62,770 bases of DNA from Nitrospirota bacterium. Lineage in GTDB: Bacteria; Nitrospirota; Thermodesulfovibrionia; Thermodesulfovibrionales; JdFR-88. The notes beneath the pieces are model-generated. The model worked only from the letters and a program-made list of their open reading frames with translations, was not told the origin of the DNA and searched no databases. Below are positions 6,538 to 51,942 of this stretch, one piece after another. Both the position numbers and the translations under genes were made by a program. Each line of letters starts with the position of its first letter. The first letter of the stretch is position 1. Location: positions 1 to 62,770 of the forward strand of contig JAKAKS010000008.1 of the NCBI GenBank assembly GCA_021813405.1, read 5' to 3'.

Positions 6538-6886
6538 AGCAATTGCGGCAGCCGCTCTTGTTGCGGCCATATTTCTGGCCGGGTGCCAGACCGAGGTGCG
6601 GTATTCGCCTTCGGAGATATCCAGATATCCGGCGGATGTGCAGGCCCATATCCGGGCTGGCGAGGTCACGATGGGCATGACGCCTGACGAGGTGCGGTTT
6701 GCCTGGGGCTCTCCTTCCGACATTAACGTGCAAACCCCCGCTGCCAACGGTGACATGAGGGAGCAATGGATATACAAGGACATCGCTTCCAGCACAACCC
6801 TGCAGTTTACAGCTGGCAAGGTAACCGAGATGAGTTCTTCCGGCATAAGCGGTAAAAAATTCGTGGAGCCTAAATCGGGGCAATGA
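6530..6886 (+). CDS. Small BamE/SmpA-like lipoprotein
   Basis: 118 aa. It has a lipoprotein signal peptide ending FLAGC with the lipidated Cys near residue 19. The mature domain contains MGMTPDEVRFAWGSPSDIN, the motif shared by BamE/SmpA/OmlA-type outer-membrane lipoproteins, in which a helix pair packs on a small beta-sheet. BamE itself assists beta-barrel assembly, but the similarity here is only to this fold motif, so the function is unproven. It has a good AAGGAGG site 7 nt before the ATG. It overlaps recX upstream and alaS downstream (ATGA), so all three are translationally coupled. Confidence 0.8.
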   Translation: MNKAIAAAALVAAIFLAGCQTEVRYSPSEISRYPADVQAHIRAGEVTMGMTPDEVRFAWGSPSDINVQTPAANGDMREQWIYKDIASSTTLQFTAGKVTEMSSSGISGKKFVEPKSGQ

Positions 6887-9534
6887 AAAGCGGCCAGATA
6901 AGAAAGGCGTTCCTCGACTATTTTAAGGAAAAGGCCCATGAAACCGTAAGGAGTTCTCCGCTTATCCCTGCTGAGGACCCAAGCCTTCTTTTTACAAACG
7001 CGGGCATGGTGCAGTTCAAGAAGGTGTTTCTGGGGGAAGAAAGCCGCCCTTACAAGCGGGCCGCAACGTGCCAGAAGTGCATGAGGGCCGGCGGCAAGCA
7101 CAACGATATAGAAAACGTTGGCTACACGGCCAGGCACCATACGTTCTTTGAGATGCTGGGCAACTTTTCCTTCGGTGACTATTTCAAGCGCGAGGCGATA
7201 GGGTTCGCCTGGGAGTTGCTCACAAAAAGGCTCGGCCTTCCGCCTGAAAAGCTGTGGGTAACCGTGTACGAGGAAGACGATGAGGCCGAGATGCTCTGGC
7301 GCGAAGTGGCGGGTATTGCGCCTGAAAGGATTGTGCGGCTTGGGGCCAGGGACAATTTCTGGCAGATGGCCGATACCGGGCCCTGCGGGCCATGCTCCGA
7401 GATAATATACGACCAGGGCGGGGAAGTTGGCTGCGGCAAGCCCGGCTGTGCCGTGGGCTGCGACTGCGACCGCTACCTGGAGATATGGAACCTCGTGTTC
7501 ATGCAATACAACCGGGACGAGGCGGGCAATCTCGCCCCGCTTCCAAGGCCAAGCATAGATACCGGCATGGGGCTGGAGAGGATAGCCGCCGTGCTCCAGG
7601 ACAAACGGAACAATTTTGATACGGACATATTCGCAGGCATCATCTCATCCATAGAAACCATAACGGGGGCCAGGTACGGGGCGGACCCCCGCAAGGACAC
7701 GGCCATCCGCGTGATAGCCGACCATATGAGGGCCATAACTTTTCTTATAGCCGACGGCGTCACCCCTTCCAACGAGGGCCGGGGTTATGTGCTTAGAAGG
7801 ATAATCCGCCGGGCCGCCAGATACGCAAGGAAACTGGATGCCCATGGGGGTAAAGGCCAGGGCGGGCCTGTTCTGTGGAAACTGGTTGATTCCGTTGCGG
7901 GTTTTGCGGCTGATGTGTACCCGGAGATTGGCAAAGAGTCCGCCAACATAAAAAAGACGCTCCGGTTCGAGGAGGAGCGGTTTGGCAACACCCTGGACCA
8001 GGGCATGCGGATACTGGAGGACCTGCTTTCCTCACTGCGCGGTTCCGGCGGCAAACTAATCTCCGGCGCGGAGGTCTTCAAGCTTTACGACACTTTCGGG
8101 TTCCCCGTGGATATAGTGCGCGACGTAGCGTCTGAAGAGGGTTTTACCGTGGACGAGGAAGGGTTTAACGAGGAGATGCGGGCCCAGAAGGAGCGGGCCA
8201 GGGCCTCATGGGTAGTGGAAGAGGGCGCGGCCGAATCCGTTTACAAGGAGCTTGCCTCCGAGGTGGGGCCGGTGGCCTTTGCCGGGTACGACACTCTTGG
8301 CTTCGATACGGTTGTAAAAGCGATAGTGAAACATGGGCATGCGGCCGAGGAGATATCCGAAGGCCAGGAGGCCGAGGTCATCGTTGAACGTACCCCGTTC
8401 TATGCCGAAAGCGGCGGGCAGACCGGGGACACTGGAGTGATCACCACAAGCAATATGGCCGCCAGGGTGCTGGACACCAGAAAGCCGGTTGAGGGCCTTA
8501 CAGTTCAGCATGTCAGGATGGAGCGGGGCCGCCTTAGGGTGTGGGACAGGGTTTCCTGCCATGTGGACGTGGAAAGGCGCGCGGCCATTACGCGCAACCA
8601 TACGGCAACCCACCTGCTGCACGCTGCGCTGAAGGAAGTGCTGGGGGACCATGTAAAGCAGGCCGGCTCCCTGGTGGAACCCGACAGGCTCCGGTTCGAC
8701 TTCACGCATTTCACCGCCCTTACGCCGGAGGAGATAACGGCAGTTGAGGACATTGTAAATTCAAAGGTGCTTGAGGACATGCCGGTAAAAACCGACGTTA
8801 TGCAGACGGACCACGCCATAGCGGCGGGGGCCACCGCCCTGTTTGGAGAGAAATACGGCGATACGGTGCGTGTGGTTGCCGCGGGGGCTTTCAGCCGGGA
8901 GCTGTGCGGCGGCACCCATGTGCAGAGCACCGGAAACATAGGGCTTTTCCTTGTGACTTCCGAGGGCAGCGTTGCCTCCGGGATAAGAAGGATAGAGGCG
9001 ATCACCGGGCTTGGCTCGCTGGCCTTTGTGCGCGACAGGAAGCGTGAATTGAAAGAAATAGCCCAGGCCCTTAAAACGGACAAGCCGCTTGAGAAGGCCC
9101 AGGAGCTTCTGGAGAAGATGAAGGCCCTCGAAAAAGAGATGGAGGGCATCAGGGCCGCGGGGGCGAAGGATATTGCCAAAGACCTGGCTGGCAAAATAAA
9201 GATGGTTGACGGCGTGAAGGTGCTTTCTGAAAAGGTTTCCGGGCAGAACTTTGGCCAGAAGGAACTGAGGGAGCTTGCCGACGTGCTGAGGGACCGCATA
9301 GGCTCCGGCGTGATAATGCTTGCAAACAGCGAGGGCGCCCTGCTGGCCACGGTAACCAAAGACCTTTCAGGCAGGGTAAAGGCCGGGGACATACTTGGGG
9401 AAGTTGCCAGGCTTGCAGGTGGCAGGGGCGGGGGCAAACCAGAGCTTGCCCAGGGCGGCGCCAAGGAGCGTGAAAAGCTGGACAGCGCACTGGAAAAGGT
9501 ATACGATATTGTCGGAAGTGCCCTGAAAAAATAA
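6883..9534 (+). CDS. alaS: Alanyl-tRNA synthetase
   Basis: 883 aa, full length. It charges tRNA-Ala in the cytoplasm and edits Ser/Gly mischarging. The N-terminal class II catalytic core starts IRKAFLDYFKEKAHETV with motif 2 around RHHTFFEMLGNFSFGDYFK. The editing domain carries zinc ligands HTATHLLH (HxxxH) and CGGTH. The C-terminal half has coiled-coil heptads (near residues 715-760) and a glycine-rich C-Ala domain ending GGGKPELAQGG. The start ATG overlaps the stop of the upstream lipoprotein. Long open frames on the opposite strand here are shadows of its codon bias. Confidence 0.98.
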   Translation: MKSGQIRKAFLDYFKEKAHETVRSSPLIPAEDPSLLFTNAGMVQFKKVFLGEESRPYKRAATCQKCMRAGGKHNDIENVGYTARHHTFFEMLGNFSFGDYFKREAIGFAWELLTKRLGLPPEKLWVTVYEEDDEAEMLWREVAGIAPERIVRLGARDNFWQMADTGPCGPCSEIIYDQGGEVGCGKPGCAVGCDCDRYLEIWNLVFMQYNRDEAGNLAPLPRPSIDTGMGLERIAAVLQDKRNNFDTDIFAGIISSIETITGARYGADPRKDTAIRVIADHMRAITFLIADGVTPSNEGRGYVLRRIIRRAARYARKLDAHGGKGQGGPVLWKLVDSVAGFAADVYPEIGKESANIKKTLRFEEERFGNTLDQGMRILEDLLSSLRGSGGKLISGAEVFKLYDTFGFPVDIVRDVASEEGFTVDEEGFNEEMRAQKERARASWVVEEGAAESVYKELASEVGPVAFAGYDTLGFDTVVKAIVKHGHAAEEISEGQEAEVIVERTPFYAESGGQTGDTGVITTSNMAARVLDTRKPVEGLTVQHVRMERGRLRVWDRVSCHVDVERRAAITRNHTATHLLHAALKEVLGDHVKQAGSLVEPDRLRFDFTHFTALTPEEITAVEDIVNSKVLEDMPVKTDVMQTDHAIAAGATALFGEKYGDTVRVVAAGAFSRELCGGTHVQSTGNIGLFLVTSEGSVASGIRRIEAITGLGSLAFVRDRKRELKEIAQALKTDKPLEKAQELLEKMKALEKEMEGIRAAGAKDIAKDLAGKIKMVDGVKVLSEKVSGQNFGQKELRELADVLRDRIGSGVIMLANSEGALLATVTKDLSGRVKAGDILGEVARLAGGRGGGKPELAQGGAKEREKLDSALEKVYDIVGSALKK

Positions 9535-33061: not shown

Positions 33062-34141
33062 ATGCAGCATTCCATGATGGAAAAACGAATACATAGTTTT
33101 ACTTTTCTGGTCTTTCCGGCGCTGCTGGTATTTCTGCAGATGGCTGCCATTTCTTTGCCGCAGCAGGCCGTGGCCGCCAACGCCTATGTGGGGCCAAACG
33201 GCCAGATATATATGGGGGACTCGCTTCCCAGGGAACTTCTGGACAAGGGTTATGTCCCGATGGGCTCCAGGCGTGAGTCGCTTTATCCAACACATGGCAA
33301 ATTCAAGGATTTCATGTGGAAGGTCTCTTCCGGCACCACCACGGTTTATATCCTGGGCTCCGTGCATACGGCCAGAAGCAACGTTTACCCGCTGCCAGAC
33401 GGGATTGAAAACGCTTTTGATGGCTGCAGCGTACTTGCGGTGGAGGCCGATTTGAACCCCGGCAAGCTCATGAGAAATGCCGTGGACATAACAAGGGAGA
33501 TTCTGCGCGGAATCACGTACCCTGGGGGAGATACAATAGAAAACCACATCTCCGCTCATACCTACGCCCTTACCAAGGCCAGGCTGGAAATGTTCGGCGT
33601 CTCCATGGACCAGGCAAAATATTTCAGGCCATGGGTGCTGGCCTCCATGGTAGAAGGCTTGTCCGATATGGGGGAAGGCTTTTCGGTCAATTACGGGATA
33701 GACAAGCACTTCATGGACGAGGCGGCCGGCAAGAAGCGCATCGTTGAGCTTGAGGGCATTGCCTTCCAGATAAACCTGTTTAATAATCTCTCCGGCAAGG
33801 AGGAAGAGGCGATGCTGCTTGGCACGCTTAACGAAAAGCAGGGCGAGCTGAAAACACTGCTTTCCTATTGGGCAGTGGGGAACGCCGCCAGGATAAACGC
33901 GCTTATTTACGGAGACATCGAAAAGAATCCTGATATGGCGTCATTCTACAAAAAATTCCTGTGGGACAGGAACCGGGGGATGGCCGAAAAGATAGAGAAA
34001 TTCCTGGACGGCAGGGAGAAGGTGTTTGTGGTTGTTGGCGCGGCCCACCTTGTTGGGGACAAGGGCGTGCTGTCGTTGTTAAGGCAGAAGGGTTACAAGG
34101 TAGAGCAGATGGAATCCGAAGCACGGCCTGCATCGTTTTAG
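33062..34141 (+). CDS. TraB/GumN family protein (signal peptide)
   Basis: 359 aa. N-terminal signal peptide (about residues 6-38, VFLQMAAISLPQQAVAA), then a TraB/GumN domain with the two family GxxH motifs: ILGSVHTARS near residue 98 and VVGAAHLVGDKG near residue 327. Conserved acidic AVEADL lies between them. TraB-fold proteins resemble metalloproteases that use GxxH and Glu residues; activity is shown for few. ATGs at 33062, 33074 and 33077 are possible starts. A TATAAT at 33058-33063 overlaps the first, which if functional would favour the later two. It ends 14 bp before the convergent dehydrogenase. Confidence 0.85.
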   Translation: MQHSMMEKRIHSFTFLVFPALLVFLQMAAISLPQQAVAANAYVGPNGQIYMGDSLPRELLDKGYVPMGSRRESLYPTHGKFKDFMWKVSSGTTTVYILGSVHTARSNVYPLPDGIENAFDGCSVLAVEADLNPGKLMRNAVDITREILRGITYPGGDTIENHISAHTYALTKARLEMFGVSMDQAKYFRPWVLASMVEGLSDMGEGFSVNYGIDKHFMDEAAGKKRIVELEGIAFQINLFNNLSGKEEEAMLLGTLNEKQGELKTLLSYWAVGNAARINALIYGDIEKNPDMASFYKKFLWDRNRGMAEKIEKFLDGREKVFVVVGAAHLVGDKGVLSLLRQKGYKVEQMESEARPASF

Positions 34142-34155
34142 GCCCCTGTTTAAGA

Positions 34156-35265
34156 TTACGCCCATTCTATTACCGCTTTAATCTCGTCCGGGGAATGCCT
34201 TGTAAAAACATCGTTGAACGCCTCTGCCTTGTAGCGGTTGGTGATTAGCTTTTCAGCGTGGTCTCCCCACATGGCGGCGGACTGAAGCAGGTCGTTTGCC
34301 GCCATCCGGAAGTGGCCGTGCGCCGCATTAACGCTGCCTGCAACTGCCTGATTGTAAAGCACCAGCCTGCGCATCATCTCTGCGCCGGGGATTTGCAGTG
34401 GGCGGCCGCCGCCGGGGATGCCGGTTAGCACGTAAATTCCATCATGGGCCAGAAAGTCCAACAGGCTGAAATCCAGTGAGGCGATGCCCGCAGCCTCAAA
34501 CACCATATCCATCTGCCCCGCGCCGCCGCCTGTTTTGCCGGAAGCCGTATTTGCATTGCGGCCGTTTATATAATGCCCGCCGATCTTTTCAATCCATTGT
34601 GGCCGTGCCGTTTCCGGGGCCACGATATCAAGCCCGTAAACCTCTGCCCCCCGCAGCCGCAGCGCAAGCGCGGCCAGAAGGCCTATAGGCCCCAGCCCGG
34701 CCACAAGGCATTTCTTCCCGTACAGCCATTCGGGTGTTGAATATGCGTCCGGCAGGCGGGCGAACTGGATGCGCACGGCTTCTTCTATCGCCTTTTCGGC
34801 AACCGAAAGCGGCTCCAGCAGAACGCCCGCCTTTTCGATTTCAGCGGGCACCTTAACAAGATATTTTACCCTGTCCGTTACGTATTCAGTCTGATAACCG
34901 TCCAGCCCCCAGATGCCGCGCTCCATAAATTGGCCTGTGCGGCACATATCAGGGCGGTCCATCTGGCAGGGGAGGCATTTCCCGCAGCCGCGGCGCACTG
35001 TGAACACCGCGAAATCACCTGCCTTTACGCTTTTTACGTCTTTGCCTGTTTCAACCACTTTACCGAACATCTCATGGCCGATAATTAAATCCTGCCGTCC
35101 GGCGGGGGCCATGGCGCGGCCGCCTGCGGCCTCTTCGCGGTCCGTGCCGCATATGCCAACCCGCAGCACCTGCAATTTGACCTCGTCTGGCGCAGCTATG
35201 GAAGGCTCGTCCCTTGATGTGAGTTGCAGGGCAGTGGTGCCGGGCTTTAACGAGATCGCCTTCAT
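34156..35265 (-). CDS. Zinc-dependent glucose 1-dehydrogenase-like enzyme
   Basis: 369 aa medium-chain dehydrogenase close to the archaeal-type glucose/aldose dehydrogenases. The catalytic zinc ligands are in GICGTDRE and IIGHEMFGKV. Structural zinc cysteines are in RRGCGKCLPCQMDRPDMC. The Rossmann motif GLGPIGLLAA starts near residue 197. The C-terminal VAGSVNAAHGHFRMAANDL matches the glucose dehydrogenase subfamily. It probably oxidises a sugar with NAD(P)+. It lies 20 bp after an F420-type reductase gene on the same strand. Confidence 0.87.
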   Translation of the reverse strand: MKAISLKPGTTALQLTSRDEPSIAAPDEVKLQVLRVGICGTDREEAAGGRAMAPAGRQDLIIGHEMFGKVVETGKDVKSVKAGDFAVFTVRRGCGKCLPCQMDRPDMCRTGQFMERGIWGLDGYQTEYVTDRVKYLVKVPAEIEKAGVLLEPLSVAEKAIEEAVRIQFARLPDAYSTPEWLYGKKCLVAGLGPIGLLAALALRLRGAEVYGLDIVAPETARPQWIEKIGGHYINGRNANTASGKTGGGAGQMDMVFEAAGIASLDFSLLDFLAHDGIYVLTGIPGGGRPLQIPGAEMMRRLVLYNQAVAGSVNAAHGHFRMAANDLLQSAAMWGDHAEKLITNRYKAEAFNDVFTRHSPDEIKAVIEWA

Positions 35266-49061: not shown

Positions 49062-49091
49062 TTGATAAAAGGGCTGTCAGCATTTTATAAT
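49062..49091 (+). promoter_or_regulatory. Sigma-70-like promoter of the polyamine operon
   Basis: TTGATA (49062-49067) and a perfect TATAAT (49086-49091) are 18 bp apart, about 45 bp before the decarboxylase start. It would drive the decarboxylase, speE and STAS genes. Confidence 0.65.
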
Positions 49092-50355: not shown

Positions 50356-51216
50356 ATGATCAAATTTTACGAGAACGCGCCTTACGTACCCGTGCAGACG
50401 GGGTATGACGTGGAAAATATATTGTACAAGGGCAAAAGCCGCTTCCAGGACATCATGGTGGTTGAAAACGCGGATTTCGGGAAGATGCTGCTGCTGGATA
50501 ACGTTGTTCAGCTTACCGAGGCCGACGAGTTCTTCTACCATGAGATGCTTGCCCATGTGTTGCTGCATGCCCAGCCAAACCCGAAAAAGGTTGTGGTGAT
50601 AGGCGGAGGCGACGGCGGGGTTGTAAGGGAGGTCCTTAAACACAAGAGCATAGAGAAGGTCTGGTTCATCGAGATAGACGAAGAAGTCATAAAGGTAAGC
50701 GAAAAATTTTTCCCCCAGGTGGCCTCCGGCAACAAGGACCCGCGGGTGGAGATTAAGTGCATGGACGGGGCGGAGTTCGTGAAGATGCTGCCCGCCAAGG
50801 ACATAGACGCAATAATAGTGGACTCCACGGACATCATAGGGTTTGCCCGCACGCTGTACACCAAGGAGTTCTTTGCCGCGGTAAGAAACTGCCTGAAGGA
50901 CACCGGCATGTTCGTGACCCATTCGGAGTCCATAATTTTTCACCGGGACACGGTTGTAAAAGTGCAGAACATACTCTCAAGGGCCTTCCCGGTAGTCGAT
51001 CTTTATACCGCCGCCATAGCCACATATCCGGGCTACTGGTGGAGCTTTTCCATAGGATCCGTCTCTCTGGACCCAAGGGAGGTGCGCCAGCCATTCAGCA
51101 TAGAAACAAAGCTGTATGATGACGAGATGCACAAAAACGCCTTTCTGCCCCGCAAGTTCTACAAGAAACTGGTGGAGGGCAAACTGGGCTGGGAGATAAG
51201 GGGGATTTTCGAATGA
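50356..51216 (+). CDS. speE: Spermidine synthase-type aminopropyltransferase
   Basis: 286 aa. It transfers aminopropyl from decarboxylated SAM to a diamine. N-terminal QDIMVVENADFGKMLLLDNVVQLTEADEFFYHE and the SAM-fold GGGDGGVVREVLKH are standard. The active-site strand reads IIVDSTDIIGFARTLYT, whereas most spermidine synthases have DSTDPxGPA, so both prolines are replaced. The Asp residues are kept, so activity is likely, but amine acceptor specificity may differ. No speD is seen in the window. Its end overlaps the STAS gene by 4 bp. Confidence 0.92.
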   Translation: MIKFYENAPYVPVQTGYDVENILYKGKSRFQDIMVVENADFGKMLLLDNVVQLTEADEFFYHEMLAHVLLHAQPNPKKVVVIGGGDGGVVREVLKHKSIEKVWFIEIDEEVIKVSEKFFPQVASGNKDPRVEIKCMDGAEFVKMLPAKDIDAIIVDSTDIIGFARTLYTKEFFAAVRNCLKDTGMFVTHSESIIFHRDTVVKVQNILSRAFPVVDLYTAAIATYPGYWWSFSIGSVSLDPREVRQPFSIETKLYDDEMHKNAFLPRKFYKKLVEGKLGWEIRGIFE

Positions 51217-51588: not shown

Positions 51589-51942
51589 ATGAGGAAACGG
51601 CAATTTTCAATTTTTTTTCTGGTTTTGGCGTTATCGCTGCTTCTGCCTGTTCTTCAGCGCAGCGCCCCGGCCTGAGGATGCAGCAGCGCTTATATCACCA
51701 GGAAGGGGTTCCTGGCAGGCTCTACTCCCGAAAATCTGACGCTGGCCACGGGGTATGAAAAGAATGGCAATGAGAAACGGCTTGCGGCTTTTATTAAAGA
51801 CGGGCGTGCTGTAAGGTTGGACGGCAAGACTACAATACAGGTGATCGAAAGATCCATCAAACTGAAGATGATCGAGATAAAACTGCCCGGCCGGAACGGC
51901 CCTTATTGGGTGCCGGCCGACTCTCTTGCGCCTCTGAAATAA
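51589..51942 (+). pseudogene. Lipoprotein/exported gene interrupted by one in-frame TGA
   Basis: A 118-codon frame that is open except for a TGA at codon 29 (51673-51675). Before it is a convincing signal peptide (MRKRQFSIFFLVLALSLLLP, ending SAPA). After it come 88 codons of coding-like sequence beginning GCSSAYITRKGFLAGSTPEN and ending PYWVPADSLAPLK, resembling small SH3-like periplasmic lipoproteins. No alternative start follows the TGA, so the frame needs the stop read through or repaired (TGG Trp or TCA Ser by one change). A perfect 7-bp hairpin with loop GGGG (51698-51715) begins 22 nt after the TGA. It may be a recent nonsense pseudogene or a selenocysteine gene. Confidence 0.6.
51698..51715 (+). 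promoter_or_regulatory. Hairpin downstream of in-frame TGA (bSECIS-like)
   Basis: CCAGGAA (51698-51704) pairs perfectly with TTCCTGG (51709-51715) around the loop GGGG. The loop starts 29 nt after the TGA. From memory, the bacterial SECIS model needs a 4-16 bp upper stem, a loop of 3-14 nt with a G in the first two positions, and 16-37 nt between UGA and loop; all are met. Short hairpins also occur by chance in GC-rich coding DNA. Confidence 0.35.

Follow-up and report, generated by a model that had tools for sequence, protein, structure and literature searches.

A candidate selenoprotein family of Nitrospirota with selenocysteine predicted at the mature N-terminus

A catalogue of prokaryotic selenoproteins from 2026 comprises 119 families, and the majority of these proteins are thought to have redox functions (PMC13188914). 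The published limits for a bSECIS hairpin are a spacing of 16–37 nt, a stem of 4–16 bp and a loop of 3–9 nt, with a G within the first two loop positions and an MFE of -7.5 kcal/mol or lower (PMC13188914). A UGC motif is found in the catalogued DUF1573 and TlpA-like selenoproteins (PMC13188914). Here we report a gene on a 62,770-nucleotide stretch of DNA from a Nitrospirota bacterium (contig JAKAKS010000008.1; hereafter the window), which is like those of bacterial selenoproteins in its in-frame UGA, in a hairpin within the published limits, in a host with complete Sec machinery and in homologues that carry Cys at the Sec position. It differs in that its family is absent from the catalogue and in the prediction that cleavage of a signal peptide leaves Sec as residue 1. 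With the DUF1573 (PF07610) and TlpA-like selenoproteins the encoded protein shares a UGC motif (U-G-C), but it has no Pfam match, and the other genera with Sec forms have U-x-x-x-x-C.

The periplasmic mer accessory proteins MerP and MerG offer a second comparison; MerP has a two-cysteine motif. The family described here is likewise small and exported, and its gene lies beside merB in three relatives, but it has no Pfam or NCBIfam mer match and a predicted N-terminal Cys or Sec in place of the two-cysteine motif of MerP.

The interrupted gene and its homologues

The gene occupies positions 51589–51942 (+ strand) and has 117 codons counting Sec, the last three nucleotides (51940–51942) being a TAA stop. 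Translation gave a single frame, MRKRQFSIFFLVLALSLLLPVLQRSAPA-TGA-GCSSAYITRKGF...SLAPLK-TAA, in which the TGA is codon 29 and is followed by 88 codons, and so bore out the initial annotation, which had described a signal peptide and an 88-codon domain split only by this TGA. Its statement that no start codon follows the TGA was right in that there is no ATG soon afterwards, but in-frame TTG and GTG codons do occur far downstream, within the conserved domain. Nearby, TGA is used as an ordinary stop, in line with what had been noted for recA and osmC: speE ends with TGA at 51214–51216.

A SpoIIAA-like gene (PF11964; 51213–51581, +) ends 7 nt upstream of the ATG and likely shares one transcript with the selenoprotein gene. 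It overlaps by 4 nt with the spermidine synthase gene speE (PF01564; 50356–51216, +), which is preceded by a gene of the ornithine/arginine decarboxylase family (PF02784; 49136–50332, +). The decarboxylase gene is likely the first of the transcript, and a promoter-like match (11/12) lies upstream of it at 49062–49091. This tightly spaced order of four genes is kept in one relative (G001) and not elsewhere. The context in G004, another genome with a Sec form, is unlike that in the window (L044, 7786–10370): the gene is followed by genes for a DUF4390 exported protein and an apparent sensor kinase.

Family matches were obtained in 8 of 121 relatives, counting the genome of the window itself (G000), and in 13 of 396 genomes across the phylum. 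The TGA is shared, at one and the same alignment column, by G000, G001, G004 and G006, four genomes that represent three genera; identities to the window protein are 91%, 45% and 43% for G001, G004 and G006, respectively (lowest values about 42–45%). The more distant homologues (n = 6; G003, G099, G014, G171, G344 and G183) are Cys forms with TGC or TGT in that column, and one divergent member (G355) has neither Sec nor Cys there. The initial annotation had left its reading to be judged by the residue that homologues align with position 29; among the homologues found, G355 apart, this is TGA or Cys, and none has Trp or Ser. At the level of the alignment, the alternation of TGA and Cys is a classical Sec/Cys pair.

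The Sec forms have a second Cys, located at +3 in the genus of the window and at +6 (U-x-x-x-x-C) in the other two Sec genera, and the Cys forms have none at either position; in three of the latter (G171, G344, G183) a Cys is found near the C-terminus. The U-G-C arrangement beside the cleavage site, to which attention had been drawn initially, therefore holds for the genus of the window but is not a motif of the family. All four Sec-form genomes belong to one family-level lineage, and a search for further Sec forms in the class of G183 and in the order found none. The protein tree resolved neither the relations among the Sec-form genomes nor how often, and in which direction, Sec and Cys have replaced each other. 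A scan of genome contigs returned one relative only, a Nitrospirae MAG, which is the nearest named relative; DNA and tblastn searches of a plasmid collection gave no match, and an Rfam search over the window gave tRNA only.

Evidence for recoding of the UGA

The host assembly (2.9 Mb; estimated 100% complete) contains selA, selB, selC and selD, the four genes whose presence the initial annotation had left to be checked. The tRNA-Sec (selC) has a UCA anticodon and scores 69.6 bits, and profile matches were obtained for SelB (356 bits), SelA (582 bits) and SelD (356 bits); all four scores exceed the curated cut-offs. The host selD itself has an in-frame TGA (L040, 1531–1533) with a strong hairpin after it and therefore provides an internal positive control for UGA recoding in this organism. 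All ten U/C-bearing genomes have selA; the search for tRNA-Sec gave no clear hit in G099 or in G001, whose assembly is in 220 contigs.

The hairpin (51698–51715, +) consists of CCAGGAA (51698–51704), a GGGG loop (51705–51708) and TTCCTGG (51709–51715). Its stem starts 22 nt and its loop 29 nt after the TGA, and with a local MFE of -10.7 kcal/mol it lies within the published bSECIS rules for stem, loop, spacing and energy, so that the perfect 7-bp stem at SECIS spacing that had been described initially holds up against those rules. Watson-Crick stems of at least 7 bp under the bSECIS rules follow 0.3% of the 1583 TGAs in the window, and 7.8% of synonymous shuffles of the window peptide also yield such a stem, a rate that is high because the peptide itself favours pairing. 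The window contains 60 pairs of frames joined by a TGA, and a 7-bp stem is present in one of them besides the selenoprotein gene. This second candidate (33931–34246, +), although its TGA is followed by an open frame and a SECIS-like hairpin, lies out of frame inside a gene at 33062–34141 and was rejected as a chance occurrence. Taken alone, the hairpin of the selenoprotein gene is suggestive only; what decides the case for selenocysteine is the comparative evidence.

The only difference in the hairpin region between the three Sec genera is at one loop base (GGGG or CGGG). Where G000, G004 and G006 have the same amino acid, the codons are identical in 6 of 6 cases in the hairpin versus 8 of 26 elsewhere (Fisher p = 0.003), and the hairpin codons are thus kept beyond the constraint on the protein. 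A homologous stem was sought in the Cys homologues and is absent. The stem is invariant across the Sec forms, so its pairs provide no evidence from covariation, and none was seen. Between G000 and G001, the sequence after the TGA has a dN of 0.036 and a dS of 0.116, which shows the region to be under selection and, by implication, translated. The resulting dN/dS of about 0.3 (13 changed codons) exceeds the range of the neighbouring genes measured (0.03–0.14), which indicates a purifying selection laxer than that on these neighbours.

Conservation of the Sec/Cys pair and of the hairpin, the presence of the Sec machinery and purifying selection after the TGA together make it very probable that the UGA at 51673–51675 is recoded as selenocysteine. 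It would be decoded by the SelB and tRNA-Sec of the host, with the hairpin at 51698–51715 as guide. Near-cognate readthrough of the UGA as Trp or Cys, independent of SelB, is most improbable: insertion of Cys would suit the Cys found at this position in homologues, but the Sec pathway is complete, the hairpin at SECIS spacing is conserved in the TGA forms only, and no homologue has Trp at the UGA position. That the TGA is a nonsense mutation in a pseudogene or a sequencing error, with a peptide that stops after the signal sequence, is hardly credible. Pseudogenes are admittedly common in bacteria, and chance does produce hairpins this strong (in the shuffles and at 33931), but the TGA recurs at one column in three genera (four genomes) and is followed there by open frames, alternates with Cys, and precedes a sequence under purifying selection with a hairpin conserved beyond the protein. 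The recent nonsense mutation or base-call error that the initial annotation had put forward as the competing reading is excluded, as this TGA is shared by three genera whose genomes were assembled independently.

Export, fold and novelty of the protein

Residues 1–28 (51589–51672, +) form a predicted Sec-pathway signal peptide that ends in A-P-A. The residues before the U or C are A-x-A or A-x-G in nine of ten homologues and V-Y-A in the tenth. Such a site is like that of signal peptidase I, so the Sec or Cys would become mature residue 1, and in the window protein residue 29 (Sec) is predicted to be the first residue of a mature protein of ~89 residues. We infer both the cleavage site and a periplasmic location; the product would be exported via the Sec translocon and cleaved after A-x-A.

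The lipobox of lipoproteins has Cys at +1 and usually Leu at -3. A loose four-residue version of this pattern fits eight of the ten sequences, and in G099 (L048, 2768–3673) translation suggested an lgt-like gene (prolipoprotein diacylglyceryl transferase) after the Cys form in another frame, both of which speak for a lipoprotein family in which the Cys or Sec at +1 is lipid-attached and the Sec forms would have diacylglycerol on selenium. Lipidation is nevertheless unlikely, because Leu is absent at -3 in all ten sequences (nine have Ala there) and the Pro at -2 in G000 and G001 misfits the lipobox; the polar c-regions of the signal peptides of the family are, moreover, typical of signal peptidase I. 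Cleavage by signal peptidase I, with a free Sec or Cys at the mature N-terminus, is the reading followed below.

The mature domain (51673–51939, +; 89 residues) is predicted to be an SH3-like barrel with two inserted helices (AlphaFold2, Foldseek). The AlphaFold2 model has a mean pLDDT of 89.1, and Foldseek aligned this predicted model with SH3 domains over 43 columns at E values of 0.02–0.03, a probability of about 1.0 and target-normalised TM scores of 0.55–0.59, so that confidence in an SH3-like fold is moderate. The predicted barrel of strands resembles SH3-fold domains in the PDB such as that of Abl, but the E values are only 0.02–0.03, there is no similarity at the level of sequence profiles, and the window protein has a pair of helices ahead of the barrel.

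No meaningful match to the window protein was found among the sequence profiles of Pfam, NCBIfam and PDB; selenoproteins are represented in the NCBIfam set by one model or more (NF040728), and the set picks out selD, selB and selA. The catalogue of 119 families contains nothing alike by domain or motif (PMC13188914), and a literature search found no description of the gene family. In view of the missing profile matches and its absence from the catalogue, the gene is a candidate for a new selenoprotein family.

Mercury-related context and possible function

Nitrospirae from mine sediments have been reported to carry merB together with hgcAB (PMC9948709). In three Nitrospirota genomes, a Cys-form or remnant gene of the family lies directly 3' of merB (L050, 3250–6625; L051, 120–2217; L053, 6731–8646). 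The gene orders are merR-merA-merB-[Cys form] in G344, where MerA was confirmed by TIGR02053, merA-SHOCT-merB-[Cys form] in G183, and merR-merB-[remnant] in G085. The remnant (L053, near 6731–6920, - strand) has lost its N-terminal half and was rejected as an intact member of the family; it is an apparent pseudogene. The small protein encoded between merA and merB in G183 has a SHOCT domain, and a similar one is found in G099 (L060). The mer-adjacent Cys forms and the SHOCT proteins are possibly undescribed mer accessory proteins.

MerB was detected in 4 of the 32 genomes tested, all of them carriers of the family (p about 0.014, with kinship ignored), and in none of the Sec-form genomes among these 32. 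Linkage to mer genes is confined to the three relatives with Cys or remnant forms; the contexts of the Sec-form genes differ, and the family member of G099 is not adjacent to merB. Horizontal spread of a single unit could account for the merB clusters. Since the Sec-form genomes have no MerB, any role of the protein there would be independent of organomercurial cleavage.

The position of the Cys-form genes directly after merB leads us to propose, tentatively, that the N-terminal thiol or selenol captures soft metals, probably mercury. According to the proposed mechanism, selenocysteine would form the N-terminus of a mature, SH3-like periplasmic protein of ~89 residues that has Cys in the same place in the relatives. 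The most likely chemistry would involve the N-terminal selenolate or thiolate and the alpha-amine, in the Sec forms also the Cys at +3 or +6, and would serve either the capture of soft metals (Hg(II), organomercurials) or a reversible Se-S redox step.

Metal capture has its main rival in a purely redox function. In this reading the Sec form would work as a thiol/peroxide redox protein that forms a selenenylsulfide with the nearby Cys and has no role with metals. This is quite conceivable, if short of probable: every Sec form has, at +3 or +6, a second Cys without counterpart at those places in the Cys forms, and such a function would agree with what is thought of most prokaryotic selenoproteins (PMC13188914). 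On the other hand, the predicted fold is SH3-like and not thioredoxin-like, a UxxC or CxxU motif is absent, and the proximity to merB speaks for metal handling rather than for a role in redox chemistry only. The more specific form of the metal-capture proposal, in which a free N-terminal Sec acts as a selenolate and alpha-amine chelate that scavenges periplasmic mercury or other soft metals and in which the Cys versions were recruited to organomercurial-lyase operons, is speculative and has to be regarded as rather doubtful.

This study would add a new family to the bacterial selenoproteins, from a lineage of largely uncultured Nitrospirota, whose gene standard annotation would cut down to nothing but its signal peptide. 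Should the mature protein indeed begin with Sec, this placement would be unusual, with a selenol and an amine both on offer for chemistry. The fact that Cys-form genes are linked to merB suggests that mercury detoxification has a further, new component in the periplasm.
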